Positions 7,142 through 64,000 of a DNA stretch of 64,000 nt are shown here, piece by piece. The stretch spans positions 1,547,684 through 1,611,683 of the forward strand of contig NZ_KQ758903.1 in the NCBI RefSeq assembly GCF_001466665.1, in the 5' to 3' direction. The notes under the pieces are model-generated. The model was not told the DNA's origin. It saw only the letters and a program-made list of their open reading frames with translations, and did not search any database. A program made the translations under genes and the position numbers. Source of the stretch: Dehalogenimonas alkenigignens (GTDB lineage Bacteria > Chloroflexota > Dehalococcoidia > Dehalococcoidales > Dehalococcoidaceae). Within the stretch, counting starts at the first letter, position 1. Each line of letters opens with the position of its first letter.

Positions 7142-7235
7142 AGCGTTCTCCAAGTTTATTTATATTGTATCAGACCCGGTGTCCGTTCGGCTGGGCGGGC
7201 TAAATCTGTATTATCTTAAACGGTGTCAGTTAAGG

Positions 7236-7241
7236 TATAAT
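7236..7241 (+). promoter_or_regulatory. -10 box directly before dnaX
   Basis: TATAAT ends 10 bases before the dnaX ATG and no ribosome binding site is present between them. The transcript would begin within about 5 bases of the start codon, so dnaX may be translated from a leaderless mRNA. No clear -35 box is seen. Confidence 0.5.
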
Positions 7242-7251
7242 TACGCCGCTT

Positions 7252-9006
7252 ATGTCTTGCCAGGTTTATTACCGAAAATGGCGCCCGCAGCGGCTTTCTG
7301 AAGTGGTCGGCCAGGAGCCGATAACCCGCACTCTGCTATCCGCTTTGAATCAACGCCGTTTGGCTCAGGCTTACCTTTTCTGCGGACCCCGGGGCACGGG
7401 TAAAACCTCCACCGGGCGCATCTTAGCCAAGGCGGTCAACTGCCTGAGCAATGAAGGCGCCGGCGAACCGTGCAACACCTGTTCCATGTGCCGGGCTATC
7501 ACCGACGGCCGGGCCATGGATGTGATCGAGATCGATGCCGCGTCTAACACCGGCGTCGATGATATCCGCGAACTTAAAGAGCGCGTCAACTACGCCCCGG
7601 CCGAAGCCCGCTTCAAGGTCTATATCATCGACGAGGTCCATATGCTGTCGACGAGCGCGAGCAACGCGCTTCTGAAGACGTTGGAGGAGCCGCCGCCGCG
7701 AGTCATATTCATCCTCGCGACGACCGAACTGCATAAGATATTGCCTACTATCATGTCCCGCTGCCAGCGCTTCGATTTCCGCCGGCTTTCCGCCAAAGAC
7801 ATCGCCGGCAAACTCTCGGAAGTGGCTGCCGCCGAAGGCATCGACATCAGCGAATCCGCGGTAGCCATGCTGGCCCGGGCCGCCGGCGGCGCCCTGCGCG
7901 ACGCTGAGAACCTGCTCCAGCAGGTTGCCACGGTCCGCGGCGGCCATATCGGTCTTAAAGATGTCCAGTCATCGCTGGGCCTCACCGGCGACGACCGGTC
8001 CGGAAAACTTCTGGCCGCTATTGCGACCGGTGACGCCGCCGCCGGGCTGCGCCTGTTGCACGGCGTAGCCGCCGACGGCGTCGACCTGAAGCAATTCAAT
8101 CGAGAACTGGTCGAGCGATTACGCCAGTTGCTCATGGTCAAAGCCGGTTCCGCCGATGCCGCAGGGCTGAGTGACAATGAACTGGCCGAGACTAAAGCTC
8201 TAGCCGCTGCCACGACCATCGAACAGATATTGAAAGCATTGAAAGGCTTTTCCGCCCTATCCGCCGGAACCGATATGGGCACTCCGCTGGCCATGGAAAT
8301 GGCTCTTGTTGACGCGACGATAAAACCATCGCCTGCCGAAAAAATCGTCGAAGTTAAGCCTGGTAGAGCCGAACCGGCGCAACTACCGGTCAGGAAAGTT
8401 GAGCCCGCCGCTAAACCTGCCGAAGTGACCTCGCCGTCACCACCAAAGGAAAGTGTTCGGCAATCTAAAGGGGAACCGGTTGCACCGATTCAACCCGCTG
8501 CCGCGGCCACACCTGTATCCGCCGACCTGCCGCTGGTTCCAGTCAGTCCTGTGGCCATCCAGCCGAAGGATTCCCAGCCTTCCCCTGGCGCTAAAGAACG
8601 AATGGTTGATGAAGTTCCGCCCCCGGTGAATGAGCCGAAACTGACCGGAGCGCCGGTAACGACGCTCGAAGAATTGCAAGATCAATGGCCCCAAATACTG
8701 ACTCAAGCGCCGCCAAGGCTGCGTCGGTCGACGGCGCTGGCCATCCTGAGATCTGCGGGCATCGTCCAGCCTGTCAGCTTCAACAATGGCACGATCACCC
8801 TGTCCTTCAAATTCGCCGTCCATATGAACAAGATCAATGAACCCGAAAACAAGAAAATTACTGCGGAAATACTCTCGGCTTGCGTCGGGGCGCCGTGCCA
8901 GGTGGCTTGTGTTTTTGACCAGGTAAGCAACCATCTGGTCAAGGAGGCGCAGAAGAGGGGAGCCGAGATAATAAAAGTGGAGGATAAATGGATTTCTCAA
9001 AAGTAA
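7252..9006 (+). CDS. dnaX: DNA polymerase III subunit gamma/tau
   Basis: 584 residues; the AAA+ clamp-loader ATPase that opens the sliding clamp at the replication fork. Walker A is GPRGTGKTS (about 44-52). The zinc module Cys residues lie in NCLSN and CNTCSMC (about 63-80). Walker B is IIDEVHML, and the sensor region is FILATTELHK. After about residue 360 comes a Pro/Ala-rich linker, then a folded C-terminal domain (about 470-584) as in tau. No slippery heptamer or second start was sought beyond eye level. It overlaps the next gene by 19 bases and heads a recombination/replication cluster. Confidence 0.97.
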   Translation: MSCQVYYRKWRPQRLSEVVGQEPITRTLLSALNQRRLAQAYLFCGPRGTGKTSTGRILAKAVNCLSNEGAGEPCNTCSMCRAITDGRAMDVIEIDAASNTGVDDIRELKERVNYAPAEARFKVYIIDEVHMLSTSASNALLKTLEEPPPRVIFILATTELHKILPTIMSRCQRFDFRRLSAKDIAGKLSEVAAAEGIDISESAVAMLARAAGGALRDAENLLQQVATVRGGHIGLKDVQSSLGLTGDDRSGKLLAAIATGDAAAGLRLLHGVAADGVDLKQFNRELVERLRQLLMVKAGSADAAGLSDNELAETKALAAATTIEQILKALKGFSALSAGTDMGTPLAMEMALVDATIKPSPAEKIVEVKPGRAEPAQLPVRKVEPAAKPAEVTSPSPPKESVRQSKGEPVAPIQPAAAATPVSADLPLVPVSPVAIQPKDSQPSPGAKERMVDEVPPPVNEPKLTGAPVTTLEELQDQWPQILTQAPPRLRRSTALAILRSAGIVQPVSFNNGTITLSFKFAVHMNKINEPENKKITAEILSACVGAPCQVACVFDQVSNHLVKEAQKRGAEIIKVEDKWISQK

Positions 9007-38581: not shown

Positions 38582-39598
38582 TCAGGATAACTGCTTCGTG
38601 ACATCCCAGAAGCTGTGAAGAGATCGGAACTCCATCAACCCGCTCATCGCCCGGTTGCGAATTGCGATCCCGGCTTCGGCAGCGGCGGCCACCGGATTCA
38701 GGCCGCCCGTTAGCACAAGGCCGGCTTTATTGAGACCCACCGGCACCTCGCAAACCGGTTTACCGCTTTCCCCTACGGCAACTATACCCCGAATCGAAGC
38801 CTTTTCCAGCCGTTTGATGAGATCACGCACCAGCGGCAGGCTCATCGCGGGCACTTCCCTGAAATTTGCTAAAATTTTACCAGCGCCTCGCCGGGCTGTA
38901 TCGGCAACTGTCGTCATCCGGCTGGCAATAAAGATTTCCGATGGGTCAAGCGATGACCCTGAATAGTGAATCAAATCGCAGAATCTCCAGGGTCGGTTCT
39001 GACGGTACTGAAGCGTGCCGCCGAATCGTGAATCCATCGGTATTCCTGCCTTGAGCAGGGTACCGTTAATCACAATGCTGCACACTGTGGCTAATCCAAT
39101 GTAACCATCAGGCACCTGCAGCCCTCCCAAAGTGCCGCCTGATTCTGCGATGGCGATTCTATCCGAAACACAGATTCCGGCTTTATAAACCGGGGCCATG
39201 GCTTTCAAAGCGTCGGTGAACTGGCTTGATTTAAAAAAGGAAATATTCACCGGAATCAACCCTGCCTGCCGATCAACATCGAAGGTGCTTTGGTAAGCCA
39301 GCAGCTCTATCTTGTCGGAAACAAAACCAACCTTGTCGGTCACGAGGGCGTTTGATAACTCATCAAGTCCGGCCGCCGTGATCGACCTGCCGCTGCGGCG
39401 GGAAACCTTGCTGGTCAGTCCTTGTTCATCGAGCAGGCCGAGGTGATAACGCACCGCCCGTTCGCATAATTCAACACCGTATTCATCGCGTAGCCTCCGT
39501 GAGATCACCTGGCTGCCGAGGCAGTTGGAGGCACTGCCTAAGACTCGGAGAATCGCCAGTTTTTCCCGTTCAACTTCCCGGCTGTCTATCCTGGCCAT
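38582..39598 (-). CDS. NrpR-like transcription regulator (DUF128)
   Basis: 338 residues. An N-terminal winged helix-turn-helix (about 8-75, SQVISRRLRDEYGVELCERAVRYHLGLLDEQG) is joined to the NrpR/DUF128 domain (about 85-335), with repeated GIVAVGESGKPVCEVPVGLNKAGLVLTGGLNP-like segments. In methanogenic archaea NrpR represses nitrogen genes and is released by 2-oxoglutarate. Here the ligand and targets are unknown. The gene is transcribed away from mtaB, and a dyad lies between its promoter and start. Confidence 0.88.
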   Translation of the reverse strand: MARIDSREVEREKLAILRVLGSASNCLGSQVISRRLRDEYGVELCERAVRYHLGLLDEQGLTSKVSRRSGRSITAAGLDELSNALVTDKVGFVSDKIELLAYQSTFDVDRQAGLIPVNISFFKSSQFTDALKAMAPVYKAGICVSDRIAIAESGGTLGGLQVPDGYIGLATVCSIVINGTLLKAGIPMDSRFGGTLQYRQNRPWRFCDLIHYSGSSLDPSEIFIASRMTTVADTARRGAGKILANFREVPAMSLPLVRDLIKRLEKASIRGIVAVGESGKPVCEVPVGLNKAGLVLTGGLNPVAAAAEAGIAIRNRAMSGLMEFRSLHSFWDVTKQLS

Positions 39599-39616
39599 TT
39601 TATCTAATCAAAATAC

Positions 39617-39641
39617 GGCAAATTAACATATTTATTTTGCC
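39617..39641. promoter_or_regulatory. Dyad, candidate operator of the NrpR-like regulator
   Basis: GGCAAATTAA (39617-39626), 5 bases, TTATTTTGCC (39632-39641): the half-sites match at 9 of 10 positions. It abuts the -10 box of the regulator gene and covers the predicted RNA start. This position suits autorepression. A role is inferred from location only. Confidence 0.5.
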
Positions 39642-39670
39642 ATTATACTGCCCCGGTGATTTGAATTCAA
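39642..39670 (-). promoter_or_regulatory. Promoter of the NrpR-like gene
   Basis: On the reverse strand TTGAAT (39665-39670), 17 bases, TATAAT (39642-39647). The -35 box is part of a perfect 10-base palindrome, TTGAATTCAA (39661-39670). Confidence 0.6.
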
Positions 39671-39699
39671 TAAACGACACACTGCCGCTCAATGAGGTC

Positions 39700-39708
39700 T
39701 GGTATAAT
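39700..39708 (+). promoter_or_regulatory. Extended -10 promoter of mtaB (leaderless)
   Basis: TGGTATAAT, a perfect extended -10, ends 7 bases before the ATG at 39716. RNA should start at or next to the A of ATG. No ribosome binding site is present. Confidence 0.6.
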
Positions 39709-39715
39709 TAGTTGA

Positions 39716-40918
39716 ATGACGCGGGTATTAATCGAAACTTTTGGCTGCAAACTGAACCAGGCCGAATCAGAGGACCTGGTGCGGCAGCTTGCGGCTGAAG
39801 GGTTTGAGGTCGTCCTTTCAGCGTCTGAGGCAGAAGTAATGATCTTCAACACATGCGCGGTGACTCATATTGCCGAACGTAAGATCAGGCAAGCGATCCG
39901 GTCGGCAGTTAAGGTCAACCCCGGTCTCGATGTAGTCGTCACCGGCTGCTACGCTGATCGCGATCGCTCAGATCTGGTACATCTGCCAAACGTTACGGCG
40001 GTCATCGGCAATAACTCCAAAAGTGAAATACCAGCTTTGCTCGCCGGCCTTGGCCATTCCCCCGGTAGCATAATCCCCCGTTCGTTTATGCCGATGCGCA
40101 CCAGATCATTCATCAAAATCCAGGACGGTTGTGATCACCGATGCACATATTGTATCGTGCCCTTTGTAAGGCCGGTGAAACACTCAAGGGATCCGGTAAG
40201 TATTATCGCTGCCATTAAGTTACGCCAGGCTGAAGGGACCAAGGAAATTGTCCTGACCGGGACCGAAATCGGAGAGTACCAGAGTGACGGCCTTGGACTC
40301 AAGGAATTATTGGATAGGATCCTCGACGAAACAACTATAGAACGAATCCGCGTTTCATCGCTGCAGCCCCAGGAACTGACGCCTTCACTCATCGGTTTAT
40401 GGGCTGATGAAAGATTGTGTCCCCATTTTCATCTATCGCTCCAAAGCGGTTCAGATTCAGTACTGGGTAGAATGAGACGGCGGTATTCGACTGATATGTA
40501 CCGAAAAGCGGTCGAACTGGTGCGGAGTGTCGTGCCGGATGCAGGTATTTCAACAGATATCATCGCAGGATTCCCCGGCGAAACCGACGCGGAATTTGAT
40601 AATTCCGCAGCCTTTATCGAGGCCATGAATTTTTCCCGTTTGCACGTATTTCCTTTCTCGCCGCGGCCGGGTACCCAGGCTGCCGAAATGCCGCACATGG
40701 TTGAGGCCAAGTTAGTACAGCGGCGGGTAGAAAAGCTTCTTTCCATCGGTCAAGAATGCCTAAATACGTTTGAAAAACAATTAATTGGAACGAAGCAGAA
40801 AATTCTGGTCGAAGGCAAATCAGGTAATAAATGGGTGGGATTCACGGGAAACTATATTCGAGCTAAAATATCTGGTAATCAGAACCTTTCTAATCAGGTT
40901 GTCGAAGTGGTTCTTTAG
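39716..40918 (+). CDS. mtaB: tRNA t6A37 methylthiotransferase MtaB
   Basis: 400 residues. The N-terminal UPF0004 domain begins ETFGCKLNQAESE, with Cys residues in FNTCAVT and TGCYAD that bind a [4Fe-4S] cluster. The radical SAM motif CDHRCTYC (about 139-146) binds a second. The C-terminus (about 345-400) is a TRAM-like RNA-binding region. It adds a methylthio group to threonylcarbamoyl-adenosine 37 of tRNAs that read ANN codons. The KLNQAES start of the Cys segment is typical of MtaB rather than MiaB. Followed by a strong terminator. Confidence 0.92.
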   Translation: MTRVLIETFGCKLNQAESEDLVRQLAAEGFEVVLSASEAEVMIFNTCAVTHIAERKIRQAIRSAVKVNPGLDVVVTGCYADRDRSDLVHLPNVTAVIGNNSKSEIPALLAGLGHSPGSIIPRSFMPMRTRSFIKIQDGCDHRCTYCIVPFVRPVKHSRDPVSIIAAIKLRQAEGTKEIVLTGTEIGEYQSDGLGLKELLDRILDETTIERIRVSSLQPQELTPSLIGLWADERLCPHFHLSLQSGSDSVLGRMRRRYSTDMYRKAVELVRSVVPDAGISTDIIAGFPGETDAEFDNSAAFIEAMNFSRLHVFPFSPRPGTQAAEMPHMVEAKLVQRRVEKLLSIGQECLNTFEKQLIGTKQKILVEGKSGNKWVGFTGNYIRAKISGNQNLSNQVVEVVL

Positions 40919-42546: not shown

Positions 42547-42575
42547 TTGTAACCTCTTCATCGAAATAGTACAAT
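42547..42575 (+). promoter_or_regulatory. Promoter of the ABC peptide transporter operon
   Basis: TTGTAA (42547-42552), 17 bases, TACAAT (42570-42575). The GTG start lies only 10 bases further and has no ribosome binding site, so the message is nearly leaderless. Confidence 0.6.
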
Positions 42576-42585
42576 CCCAATCGCC

Positions 42586-44301
42586 GTGAATAGACCAGTG
42601 CCTGCCGCCATCCACGTTAGATCCTCCCAGCCTGACATCAGCCGCCGCGGTTTTGTAAAGGGACTGGCAGCCATTGCCGCTGTTATCGCCGTCAGCGAAG
42701 GATGCAATGGCCTGAATCCGATTGTCGTTGATGACGATAAAAAGAATATCCTCGTTTTAGCTAACCGCGGCGATCCGCCGGCCCATTTCAGCACGTTGCG
42801 CACCTCGAGCATCTCCCTTCACCATTCTGCCGGAGCTATCTTCGGGCCCGGCAATCTGGTCATGAGAAACCGGGGTAACATGTATTTGGTCGCTCCTTAT
42901 TTAGCCCGACGATGGGTCTCCAGCCCTGACTTCACCGAGTGGACTTTCATCCTACGGCGTGACGTTTTCTGGCATGATGGCACCCAATTCGGGCCGGATG
43001 ATGTAAAATTCTGGTTGGATCTGGCCGCCTTCGGTCTAAAGCAAGGGGATCAAGTCCGGGCACCGGCCTATTACACAGGCGAATTGGCTATTAAGCAGGT
43101 GGAGGTTATCCCGCCGGATCAGGTGAAGATAACCTTGAACGGGCCAAACCGATTCTTCCCTGATGTCCTGGCTGATCCGAGGATCAAGATCGACCATCCG
43201 CGCCACCTGATGGAAAAACAAATTAAAGACGGAGAGATCAACGTCTCACCTTCGGACGTGGGTATGATCGGCTTGGGACCTTTCAAATTTGACAGCTATG
43301 AAAATGGTTCCGTGATCCGTGTCAGGCGGTTCGATCAATACTTCGAGCAAGACTCTTCTGGAACGGCGCTGCCGTACCTCGATGGAATCGACTATATTAT
43401 CACGCCTGACGCCCAATCGATGGATATCGCCTTCCGTACCGGGCGCCTGGATGGCACAGCCAGGGGATTTGGCCACTATTTGACCGAAACACGCCTGAAA
43501 GAATACGTTAAAGATCTGGGAGATAGTGTTGTCTTTCCTTTAATGGAAGGCGGGACCTTCCGGCTGGCGTTTAACGTCCTTAAGTCCGGGCCATGGCAAG
43601 ATGCCAGAGTGAGAAGGGCGATTGCGTTGTGGATCGATAAAAAAGCCGCTGTCCCACTGGTTCTGGATGGTTTTGGCTGGACATCACCGGATGTCAGCCC
43701 CAACAACCCTGTCAAGGACAAAAACTTTGTGATCTGGCCGAGACTGGATTCTCAGGATTTGACAGCCAATCGTTTTGAGGCGCGTCGCTTGCTGAGTGAA
43801 GCGGGATTTTCCGCCGGATTCTCGATGGGGTATCTGTGCCGTGCTGAAAACGGGCTGCCCGGCGGTCAATTCCTCAAGGATCAATTGGCTGGGTTGGGGA
43901 TTGAACTCCGGCTGCAGATCGTCGATGAAGCTGAATGGAACCGCGGCCGGGTTAGCCTGGATTATGATTCCCAATCCGGAGCCCTCTCCGTATTGCCTAT
44001 TCCTGAAGGCACAGAAGGCGTTTACGGCCGTGCCAGTAAAGCCCCTGATGCCTACGCCAAGCATGAAGATTTGGAAATCGACCGTTTCTATCGCGAATTG
44101 AAAGATGCTTCGACCTATGACCGACGTTTAGACGTTTGGACGCAACTCCAGAAGTACCTGTTTGTGGATCAGACTTACGTCATCCCCATCGCCGAAATCA
44201 CCTATATCCAGGCGTTCCGGGATTATGTCAAAGGTCTGGTCATTCCGCCAGAAGACGGCCACACCTTTACGGATTATGCCACGGTCAGCTTGGAGCGGTA
44301 A
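42586..44301 (+). CDS. ABC transporter substrate-binding protein, family 5 (peptide/nickel)
   Basis: 571 residues. The N-terminus has a twin-arginine signal SRRGFVKG (about 19-26) before a hydrophobic helix and a Cys at 40 (VSEGCNG), so it may be exported folded by Tat and possibly lipid-anchored; the lipobox is imperfect. The mature part matches SBP_bac_5: YLVAPYLARRW, WTFILRRDVFWHDGTQFGPDDVKF, and INV/DARVRRAIALWIDKKA. Ligands of this family are oligopeptides, nickel chelates or sugars. It heads an operon with two permeases and one ATPase. Confidence 0.92.
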   Translation: MNRPVPAAIHVRSSQPDISRRGFVKGLAAIAAVIAVSEGCNGLNPIVVDDDKKNILVLANRGDPPAHFSTLRTSSISLHHSAGAIFGPGNLVMRNRGNMYLVAPYLARRWVSSPDFTEWTFILRRDVFWHDGTQFGPDDVKFWLDLAAFGLKQGDQVRAPAYYTGELAIKQVEVIPPDQVKITLNGPNRFFPDVLADPRIKIDHPRHLMEKQIKDGEINVSPSDVGMIGLGPFKFDSYENGSVIRVRRFDQYFEQDSSGTALPYLDGIDYIITPDAQSMDIAFRTGRLDGTARGFGHYLTETRLKEYVKDLGDSVVFPLMEGGTFRLAFNVLKSGPWQDARVRRAIALWIDKKAAVPLVLDGFGWTSPDVSPNNPVKDKNFVIWPRLDSQDLTANRFEARRLLSEAGFSAGFSMGYLCRAENGLPGGQFLKDQLAGLGIELRLQIVDEAEWNRGRVSLDYDSQSGALSVLPIPEGTEGVYGRASKAPDAYAKHEDLEIDRFYRELKDASTYDRRLDVWTQLQKYLFVDQTYVIPIAEITYIQAFRDYVKGLVIPPEDGHTFTDYATVSLER

Positions 44302-47245: not shown

Positions 47246-47336
47246 GCGCAAAGTATGATTATAGCCAGAATGCCATGCCGATTTCAATTTGCGGCTTGAG
47301 AACTCGCCGTTGGAGATGAGCCGAGCCTGCCTCCCG

Positions 47337-47345
47337 TGATATAAT
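47337..47345 (+). promoter_or_regulatory. Extended -10 promoter of prfA (leaderless)
   Basis: TGATATAAT, a perfect extended -10, ends 8 bases before the ATG at 47354. No ribosome binding site is seen. Confidence 0.55.
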
Positions 47346-47353
47346 CCAAACTT

Positions 47354-48424
47354 ATGCTGGAACAACTTGAGAAAATCGAAAAGCGTTATACCGAGATAGA
47401 AGAGGCAATTGCCACACCCGAAGTCGCCGCCAATATCCCGGAGCTCACCCGTCTTGCCAAGGAGCGCGCCGCTCTGGAAGATATCGTCGGCCTTTACCGG
47501 AGATACCTGCGCACCGTGAAGGCTTTAGAGGACACCGAACACCTTTTAGACACCGAGCGGGACGAGGAGATGTTGGCACTGGCGCGGGAGGAACACCAAA
47601 GCCTCAAAGAGCAGCAGGAGTCCCTCTACGAGGGACTGAAAATCGCCCTGTTGCCTAAGGACCCCAATGCCGGCCGCAACATCATCATGGAAATCCGCGC
47701 CGGTACCGGCGGCGACGAGGCCAAGCTTTTTGCCGCCGATCTTTTCCATATGTACACCCGCTACGCCGAACTCAAGGGCTGGAAGGTAGATGTTATCGAC
47801 CTGTCTGAATCCGCCGCCGGCGTTTTCAAGGAGGTTATCTTTGAGATCGACGGCGAGGAAGTATACAACCGCCTGAAGTTCGAGAGCGGCGTCCACCGTG
47901 TTCAGCGCGTCCCGGTGACTGAGGCCGCCGGACGCATCCATACATCGACAGCGACGGTAGCGGTGCTGCCGGTCGCCGAGGAGGTCGAGGTCGACATCAG
48001 CCCCGACGAGCTGCGGGTCGACATCTTCCATTCCGGCGGGGCGGGTGGCCAGAACGTCAACAAAGTGGCTACCGCGGTGCGCCTGACCCACCTGCCCACT
48101 GGTCTCGTCGTTGTTTGCCAGGACGAGCGTTCCCAGCTTCGGAACCGGCAGAAAGCCATGGACGTGTTGCGGGCACGCCTTCTGGCGATGGAACAGGAGA
48201 AGCAGCAGTCGGAGGTGACCGACGCTCGCCGCTCCCAGATCGGCACCGCCGAGCGCTCGGAGAAGATCCGCACCTACAACTTCCCCCAGGACCGCCTGAC
48301 CGACCACCGCATCGGCCTGTCGGTCCACAACCTGCCGAAACTGCTGCAAGGCTATCTTGATGACGTCATTGACGCTCTGGCTACCGATGAGCAGGCGCGG
48401 TTGCTGCAATCCGCCGGCATATGA
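47354..48424 (+). CDS. prfA: Peptide chain release factor 1
   Basis: 356 residues. Reads UAA and UAG in the ribosomal A site. The peptidyl-tRNA hydrolysis motif GGQ lies in [13 protein letters not shown] (about 227-239). The N-terminal helical domain and [22 protein letters not shown] are typical of RF1. The stop-codon recognition region lies at about 180-200. Its stop overlaps the prmC start by four bases (ATGA), the usual coupling with the enzyme that methylates the GGQ glutamine. Confidence 0.97.
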
Positions 48425-57943: not shown

Positions 57944-57952
57944 TGTTAAAAT
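57944..57952 (+). promoter_or_regulatory. Extended -10 promoter of uvrC (leaderless)
   Basis: TGTTAAAAT matches the extended -10 form with one change and ends 6 bases before the uvrC ATG. No ribosome binding site. Confidence 0.5.
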
Positions 57953-57958
57953 ATTGCC

Positions 57959-59806
57959 ATGGCAATCGCCCAGCTTCTTGAGGAACAAGTCCGCTGCTTG
58001 CCCGCAGCCCCCGGCGTCTATATCTATAAAGATGAAAAAGGCCGCATCATCTACGTCGGCAAGGCGGTCAATTTAAAAAACCGCGTCCGCAGTTATTTTC
58101 GCGGTACCGGCAGGCTCGACGAGAAGACCGAAATGCTGGTGGCTGAGGTGCGTGACCTGGAATACTTCGTGGTGCCTTCGGAGCAGGATGCCCTCATCCT
58201 GGAGCTAAACCTCATCAAGCGCCACCGGCCGGATTACAACATCCGCCTCAAGGATGACAAAGGCTTGCCCTACCTGCGGGTCACCCCGGGCGATTGGCCT
58301 AAGCTTGAGGTCACCCGCCGCTATGTTGAGGGCCAGGGCCGCTACTTCGGGCCGTTCACCGACTCCCGCTCCGTCCACGCCGTGGTCGATCTCCTACGGA
58401 AGATTTTTCCCTTTCGAAGTTGCAGCTTGGATCTGAAGAAAGTCAAGCGTCCATGCCTGGAATACGATATGCACCGTTGTCCGGCGCCCTGTACCGGCAG
58501 GGTCGCCGCCGAAGACTACAGGCGGAACATCAATCAGGCGGTGCTCTTCCTGGAAGGCCGGCTGGAGAAAGTGGTCAGGAACCTGAAATCGGAGATGGCC
58601 GCGGCTTCGGATAATATGGAGTTCGAGCGCGCCGCCGATTTACGGGACCGCATTCGCGACATTGAACAGGTCATCGCCGCCCAGCGTATCGCCACTAAGG
58701 TCAAGGGCGAACTCGACGCCGTCGCCTATGTCCAGAACGGTGACGAGAGCTTCGTTATGGTCTTTTTCGTTCGGGAGGGCAAGATCATTGGCAGGGAACA
58801 CTTCTTCCTGCGGGGTACCTCCGGCCAGCCGCCGTCCCAGGTCATGTCCAGCTTTGTCGGCCAGTTCTACAGCAATTCGCCCCACCTGCCGCCGCTCATC
58901 CTCATCGAACACAATCCGGATGACAAAGAGGTTCTTGAAGCCTGGCTCTCGACCAAGCGGGGAACCAAGGTCGAGATTGTCGTGCCGCAAAGGGGACCTC
59001 GTGTGGAGCTTATGAAGTTAGTCACCGAAAATGCGCGTAAAGGACTGGAACAGCACAAGATCAAGCGGCTGCTCACCGGCGCCGAAGACTCGCGCGCCGG
59101 CCTCGAAGAACTGGCAAAAGTCCTCGGCTTAAGCAAGCCGCCCCATCGCATCGAGGGCTACGATATTTCGAACATTCAGGGTAAGCTGGCGGTGGGTTCG
59201 ATGGTCGTCTTCACCGGCGGCCGGCCCGATTCAAAGAACTATCGCCGCTTCCGTATCAAGATGGTGCCCGGTGCCGATGACTTTGCCATGATGAAAGAGG
59301 TCATCGGCCGCCGGTTCGCCCATGCCAAGGCCCATAAAGATAAGCCCGACCTGGAAGGCGAAGCTGAAACCAAATGGGCTGCCCTGCCCGACCTGATTCT
59401 CATCGACGGCGGCAAGGGGCAAATTTCTGCGGCTGTCGGGGCGCTCAGAGAGAAAGGCGCCGAAAATATTCCCATTATCGGTTTGGCCAAGGAGCGTGAG
59501 GAGATATTCCTGCCGGAGCATTCGGCACCGATCATCCTCGAGGAGCGTTCCGCTGCACGACGGCTGCTGCAACGGATTCGGGACGAAGCCCACCGCTTCG
59601 CGCTTGGCTACCATACCAATTTGCGGCAAAAGTCCGCGATCGCTTCTCAACTTGAAGCCATCCCGGGCATCGGCCCGGCGCGCCGTCGCTCCCTTATTAA
59701 AAAATTCGGTTCCGTTCACGGCGTCCGCTCTGCAACGGCTGATCAAATCGTCGAGACTCAAGGCATCACTCCCCAGCTTGCTCGCCTCATTAAAGAGAGC
59801 TTATAA
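57959..59806 (+). CDS. uvrC: Excinuclease ABC subunit C
   Basis: 615 residues. GIY-YIG nuclease at the N-terminus (about 14-92: GVYIYKDEKGRIIYVGKAVNLKNRVRSYF) makes the 3' cut. The UvrB-interacting UVR segment (EFERAADLRDRIRDIEQVIA) is at about 220-245. The RNase H-like nuclease for the 5' cut spans about 370-545, with D in IEGYDISNIQG and LILIDGGKGQ. A tandem helix-hairpin-helix (IPGIGPARRRSLIKKFGSV) ends the protein. It acts with UvrA and UvrB in nucleotide excision repair. Confidence 0.97.
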   Translation: MAIAQLLEEQVRCLPAAPGVYIYKDEKGRIIYVGKAVNLKNRVRSYFRGTGRLDEKTEMLVAEVRDLEYFVVPSEQDALILELNLIKRHRPDYNIRLKDDKGLPYLRVTPGDWPKLEVTRRYVEGQGRYFGPFTDSRSVHAVVDLLRKIFPFRSCSLDLKKVKRPCLEYDMHRCPAPCTGRVAAEDYRRNINQAVLFLEGRLEKVVRNLKSEMAAASDNMEFERAADLRDRIRDIEQVIAAQRIATKVKGELDAVAYVQNGDESFVMVFFVREGKIIGREHFFLRGTSGQPPSQVMSSFVGQFYSNSPHLPPLILIEHNPDDKEVLEAWLSTKRGTKVEIVVPQRGPRVELMKLVTENARKGLEQHKIKRLLTGAEDSRAGLEELAKVLGLSKPPHRIEGYDISNIQGKLAVGSMVVFTGGRPDSKNYRRFRIKMVPGADDFAMMKEVIGRRFAHAKAHKDKPDLEGEAETKWAALPDLILIDGGKGQISAAVGALREKGAENIPIIGLAKEREEIFLPEHSAPIILEERSAARRLLQRIRDEAHRFALGYHTNLRQKSAIASQLEAIPGIGPARRRSLIKKFGSVHGVRSATADQIVETQGITPQLARLIKESL

Positions 59807-63591: not shown

Positions 63592-63600
63592 TGGTATAAT
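63592..63600 (+). promoter_or_regulatory. Extended -10 promoter of smpB (leaderless)
   Basis: TGGTATAAT, a perfect extended -10, ends 6 bases before the ATG at 63607. RNA should begin at the start codon itself. Confidence 0.6.
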
Positions 63601-63606
63601 ATTTGC

Positions 63607-64000
63607 ATGGGCGAGATTAAGGTCGTCGCTACCAACCAAAAGGCGTACCACAACTACTATATCAGCGACCCGATGGAAGCCGGGCTCGTCCTGACCGGTA
63701 CGGAGATCAAATCACTCCGCGGCGGCCGAGTTAACTTGGGCGACGCCTATGTCAAGCCGGAAAACGGCGAGATGTGGCTCCTGAATGCCCATATTGCTCG
63801 TTATGAGGCTGGTTCCTACATGAGCCATGAACCGACGCGGAGCCGCAAGCTTCTGGTCCATAAGAAGGAGATGCGTACCATGCTCGGGCGCATCAAGGAA
63901 AAAGGCCTGACCCTGGTGCCGACCAAAATCTACATTAAAGGAAATGTCGCTAAAGTGGAAGTCGCGGTCGGCAAAGGTAAAAAGCTCTATGACAAACGCG
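63607..64000 (+). CDS. smpB: SsrA (tmRNA)-binding protein SmpB, truncated by window end
   Basis: 131 codons are visible and the frame is open at the window edge. NQKAYHNYYISDPMEAGLVLTGTEIKSLR (about 10-38), NLGDAYVKPENGEMWLLNAHI and the RSRKLLVHKKEM segment are the OB-fold core of SmpB, which brings tmRNA to stalled ribosomes. The basic tail begins at GKGKKLYDKR. Only a few C-terminal residues should be missing. Confidence 0.97.
   Translation, partial: MGEIKVVATNQKAYHNYYISDPMEAGLVLTGTEIKSLRGGRVNLGDAYVKPENGEMWLLNAHIARYEAGSYMSHEPTRSRKLLVHKKEMRTMLGRIKEKGLTLVPTKIYIKGNVAKVEVAVGKGKKLYDKR

Follow-up and report, generated by a model that had tools for sequence, protein, structure and literature searches.

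Six genes with -10-like boxes next to their start codons

The DNA analysed here (the window, 64,000 nucleotides of Dehalogenimonas alkenigignens) contains six genes, for an MtaB-like protein, PrfA, UvrC, SmpB, DnaX and a peptide-binding protein, each preceded at very short distance by a hexamer identical or close to TATAAT (Table 1). The boxes and start codons were all located at the coordinates given in the initial annotation, which had also reported gaps of 6-10 bases, TGn extensions of the mtaB, prfA, uvrC and smpB boxes and the lack of ribosome binding sites. The measured gaps, defined as the numbers of bases between the end of the box and the start codon, agree with that range, and the extension is present in all four cases. 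Scanning the sequences upstream of mtaB, prfA and uvrC revealed matches of only 3-5 bases to the complement of the anti-Shine-Dalgarno sequence, and inspection of the smpB and dnaX upstream sequences revealed no Shine-Dalgarno sequence.

Table 1. Boxes and associated genes in the window (gap in bases).
Feature	Coordinates	Strand	Description
dnaX -10 box TATAAT	7236..7241	+	no TGn; ATG 7252, gap 10
dnaX (DNA polymerase III gamma/tau)	7252..9006	+	Pfam
mtaB -10 box TATAAT	39703..39708	+	TGG directly 5' (extended -10); ATG 39716, gap 7
mtaB-like gene	39716..40918	+	ORF; Pfam UPF0004 and radical SAM; tRNA methylthiotransferase family
TACAAT before GTG 42586	42570..42575	+	gap 10; membership unconfirmed
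Family 5 solute-binding (peptide-binding) protein	42586..44301	+	Pfam SBP_bac_5, PF00496; alternative start GTG 42598
prfA -10 box TATAAT	47340..47345	+	TGA directly 5' (extended -10); ATG 47354, gap 8
prfA (peptide chain release factor 1)	47354..48424	+	Pfam PCRF and RF-1
uvrC -10 box TAAAAT	57947..57952	+	TGT directly 5' (extended -10); ATG 57959, gap 6
uvrC	57959..59806	+	Pfam UvrC domains and GIY-YIG
smpB -10 box TATAAT	63595..63600	+	TGG directly 5' (extended -10); ATG 63607, gap 6
smpB	63607..64000, continues beyond window end	+	Pfam SmpB

Because every one of the six genes is preceded by genes of opposite orientation (two tRNA genes at prfA, divergently transcribed genes elsewhere), each of the six needs a promoter of its own. 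The N-termini of orthologous proteins align at the same codon for five of them, and alternative in-frame start codons are absent from the vicinity of most. For mtaB, a promoter scan of the region detected no -35/-10 pair, the sole pair belonging to the divergent neighbour. The intergenic region common to the two genes (39598-39716) combines a conventional TTGAAT-17-TATAAT pair with a ~35-base leader for the nrpR-like gene and a putative leaderless, extended -10 promoter for mtaB.

Excess of close boxes in the genome

We assembled an 864-kb sample (56% G+C) consisting of the window and 40 other stretches, which covers ~47% of the closed 1.85-Mb genome, and added pattern counts for the whole genome, in which the reductive-dehalogenase family PF13486 has 30 matches. 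A simple hexamer-coding model that ignores upstream signals predicted 778 genes in the sample. Hexamers with T1, A2 and T6 fixed and no more than one mismatch were considered TATAAT-like. AAGGAG-type hexamers predominate at gaps 6-9, and three copies of the presumed anti-Shine-Dalgarno string GGATCACCTCC are present, which indicates that the majority of genes have Shine-Dalgarno leaders.

The leaderless reading of the six genes had been made dependent on a genome-wide excess of this box spacing over chance, and such an excess was found. At gaps 6-9, 43 TATAAT-like boxes precede in-frame ATGs in the sample, compared with 13 before out-of-frame ATGs of the same regions (Fisher p = 1e-4). The in-frame counts at gaps 6, 7, 8 and 9 are 12, 10, 10 and 11, respectively, against ~3 per position elsewhere. 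About 13 of the 43 candidates are expected by chance, and the excess of ~30 among 778 genes represents roughly 3-4% of genes. The complete genome contains 75 exact matches to TATAAT-N6-9-ATG, versus 30 for the N20-23 spacing and 27 for the reversed pattern. The candidates are also distinctive in other respects: TGn precedes the box in 17 of 43 of them, compared with 13 of the 103 remaining upstream boxes and with 8% of such hexamers overall, and none has a Shine-Dalgarno match of at least 6 bases, versus 22-25% of other genes. GTG and TTG starts show little or no box peak in the sample, which makes the GTG-initiated peptide-binding protein the weakest of the six cases.

Conservation of the boxes in the genus and beyond

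Orthologues were collected from up to 30 relatives, and their upstream regions were aligned to the start codon. Within the genus, represented by eight genomes including that of the source organism, the smpB, mtaB, prfA, uvrC and dnaX boxes are present in every genome. Their gaps are 6-8 for both smpB and mtaB, 8 without exception for prfA, 5-7 for uvrC (with TAAAAT) and 9-10 for dnaX. Column identity at these five genes reaches 0.93-1.00 over the box and its extension, versus 0.45-0.62 in the -35 zone and the spacer, and no consistent -35 element (TTGACA) was found at them across the eight genomes. TGn is present in eight of eight genomes for each of smpB, mtaB, prfA and uvrC, and in none of eight for dnaX. 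In a few orthologues (smpB in L127, mtaB in L150-L152 and uvrC in L211-L213), the start codon has changed to GTG and the box is retained, in keeping with a box that determines the 5' end of the mRNA.

Two of the conserved boxes are accompanied by additional elements. Upstream of prfA (47300-47340; L177-L184), an RTGAGN motif located 17-18 bases 5' of the -10 box is kept in all eight genus genomes; a -35 variant or an operator are both possible. At dnaX (7230-7241; L237-L261), the position directly before TATAAT is occupied not by TGn but by a conserved G-rich tetramer, AAGG or similar, both in the genus and across many of the order's genomes. At its other end, dnaX overlaps the next gene by 19 bases in the window (8988-9006), and the overlap is of the ATGA type in some relatives. 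An in-frame TGA in relatives raised the possibility of recoding in dnaX, which we rejected, as in the three readable cases (L247, L251 and L252) this TGA simply terminates dnaX where it overlaps the start of the following gene.

The situation outside the genus is more heterogeneous. In the sister genus, whose genomes are 1.4-1.5 Mb in size, a close box is retained at mtaB and dnaX, although the ratio of TATAAT-N6-9-ATG to N20-23 patterns is only 1.0-1.2 (G008-G010). Several outgroup prfA and uvrC orthologues have no box adjoining the start codon. In other families, a number of uvrC (L217, L228) and prfA (L186, L188, L191) orthologues harbour a -10 box that is separated from the start codon by a 20-30 base leader, and some of these leaders contain a stretch resembling a Shine-Dalgarno sequence; in uvrC of L228, ATGTTAAAAT is followed by a leader containing AGGAGG and then by TTG. 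Since outgroup orthologues possess both the box and a 20-30 base leader, the leader seems to have been gained or lost gene by gene. In our sample of the phylum, genomes of family f25 (G033, G043, G051, G065, G073 and G080) contain 152-222 TATAAT-N6-9-ATG patterns each, i.e., 1.9-3.9 times the N20-23 count, and the near/far ratio is ~1 in several other genomes.

The gene for the peptide-binding protein stands apart. It starts with GTG, its box lies at gap 10 without TGn, and TTGTAA is found 17 bases upstream. Only one relative, 92% identical, shares the box; the N-terminus differs in the third orthologue (L269), and another GTG lies 12 bases downstream of the start. From these features, the protein is only a possible member of the leaderless set, and its box may be a chance occurrence.

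Proposed mode of expression

We propose that each box serves as the -10 element in a promoter of the ordinary housekeeping (sigma-70) type and that transcription starts at, or 1-4 bases from, the start codon, a reading to which we give a probability of roughly 0.87. Starting from the observed position, excess, sequence specificity and conservation of the boxes, we infer the transcription start point and the mode of ribosome loading as follows. The position of the box would dictate where RNA polymerase initiates, and the resulting mRNA would have no leader, or one too short for a Shine-Dalgarno sequence. Ribosomes would then load on the 5'-terminal AUG (or GUG), the established route for leaderless mRNAs. 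The extended -10 would substitute for the -35 element in four of the five well-supported genes. The genome would thus have two start modes, with Shine-Dalgarno leaders for most genes and -10-adjacent starts for ~3-4% of them, almost exclusively genes heading transcripts. Promoters may also be present farther upstream of these start codons.

The usual distance between a -10 box and the transcription start is 6-8 bases. Subtracting it from the gap of 10 at dnaX makes a leader of 2-4 bases likeliest, and this gene is thus probably near-leaderless. Taken together, smpB, mtaB, prfA, uvrC and dnaX very probably give rise to mRNAs with no leader or almost none. The initial proposal of six leaderless genes is therefore well supported by genome-wide spacing and eight-genome conservation for the first four and holds in a near-leaderless form for dnaX; it does not extend with the same strength to the peptide-binding protein.

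Alternative explanations

A quite different origin of the signal would be an unstructured, A/T-rich ribosome-entry site of the S1 type or similar to those of Bacteroidetes, on mRNAs that start farther upstream. Such sites have a precedent, as genes without Shine-Dalgarno sequences in several phyla are AT-rich at approximately -20 to -10, in regions proposed as possible S1 sites (PMC5397173). However, the signal described here is an ordered TATAAT or TAAAAT with TGn rather than a matter of AT content: at the distance of the box, TATAAT is found 17 times in the 864-kb sample and the next permutation of the same letters 4 times. Furthermore, operon-internal genes, for which ribosomes must find an entry site although a promoter is dispensable, have a single box at gaps 6-9 in that sample. 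Letter-order specificity and this near-absence led us to reject the ribosome-entry explanation, which we consider very improbable. That TATAAT-like hexamers simply occur by chance in AT-rich intergenic DNA near start codons is more improbable still. Chance must account for some of the sites, given the ~13 expected in the sample, and the box of the peptide-binding protein may be one of them, but it does not account for ~30 sites in excess at a single spacing, nor for boxes kept with their spacing over diverged flanks in eight of eight genomes at five genes.

The initial annotation had further suggested that information-processing genes have a leaderless initiation mode of their own, an impression that dnaX, prfA, uvrC, smpB and mtaB do create in the window. 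In the survey of Zheng et al. (2011, PMC3160421), information categories are overall relatively richer in leaderless genes, translation genes less so. We compared 34 candidates with 33 matched controls, all Pfam-annotated and located outside the window. In this small sample with hand-assigned classes, information genes make up 4 of the 34 candidates (TilS, RsmG, RecG and an RNase H-like protein) and 3 of the 33 controls (endonuclease III, LigD phosphoesterase and Ku), and 7/37 versus 5/40 with the window included (p = 0.5). Elsewhere in the genome, most candidates belong to metabolism or transport or have no assigned function; examples are a reductive dehalogenase, ArgC, ArgJ, UppS, a P-type ATPase, MscS and response regulators, alongside many unknowns. 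In agreement with this lack of enrichment, Deinococcus radiodurans shows no pathway bias in a study that tested -10-adjacent ORFs experimentally (Zhong et al. 2025, PMC12340547). A mode reserved for information genes is thus very unlikely, and ordinary housekeeping promoters placed next to start codons are our preferred explanation.

Relation to known systems

In textbook extended -10 promoters, a leader separates the box from the start codon. The mtaB, prfA, uvrC and smpB promoters resemble them in that TGn adjoins the hexamer (TGnTATAAT) and the -35 element is poor or absent; they differ in that the start codon comes at once after the box. It is a tentative and somewhat doubtful idea that the leaderless promoters of the genus form a recognisable class, with an extended -10 and no -35, and that this class emerged one gene at a time as leaders were lost.

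Closer counterparts have been described in surveys of leaderless genes. The TA-led signal was detected in 207 of 953 bacterial genomes, and among Chloroflexi the TAtaaT pattern was reported in 4 of 12 genomes, for 4.0-5.7% of genes (Zheng et al. 2011, BMC Genomics 12:361, PMC3160421). As in that survey, the genes described here have a TANNNT/TAtaaT signal ~10-12 bases before the start and no Shine-Dalgarno sequence, at a comparable frequency (~3-4%). With regard to TA-led spacing (first T ~10-12 bases before the start, gap ~6-9), four of our genes have gaps of 6-8, and dnaX and the peptide-binding protein, with gaps of 10, are at the edge of the range. Theirs was a whole-genome statistical survey, whereas we tracked single genes across a genus; in addition, they noted TG peaks in low-GC genomes, and we see TGn in a mid-GC genome (PMC3160421). 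In Deinococcus-Thermus, likewise, a box ~6-7 bases before the ORF drives leaderless mRNAs with no need for a -35 element, but there it concerns about one third of genes with a loose TANNNT, compared with ~3-4% of genes and near-TATAAT, often extended boxes here (PMC12340547). Leaderless transcription has been predicted in 21.6% of bacterial species by GeneMarkS-2, according to the figure cited in PMC9581028. Our literature search found no start-site map for Dehalococcoides or Dehalogenimonas.

This is thus a known and widespread mode of bacterial gene expression, of which the genes described here are a sound new instance, and they leave existing knowledge of translation initiation unaffected. 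The orthologues with and without leader constitute a small natural experiment on the gain and loss of leaders. For the organohalide-respiring Chloroflexota, a group difficult to cultivate, our analysis provides a conserved and testable set of candidate leaderless genes, which helps both start-codon annotation and promoter prediction in these bacteria.
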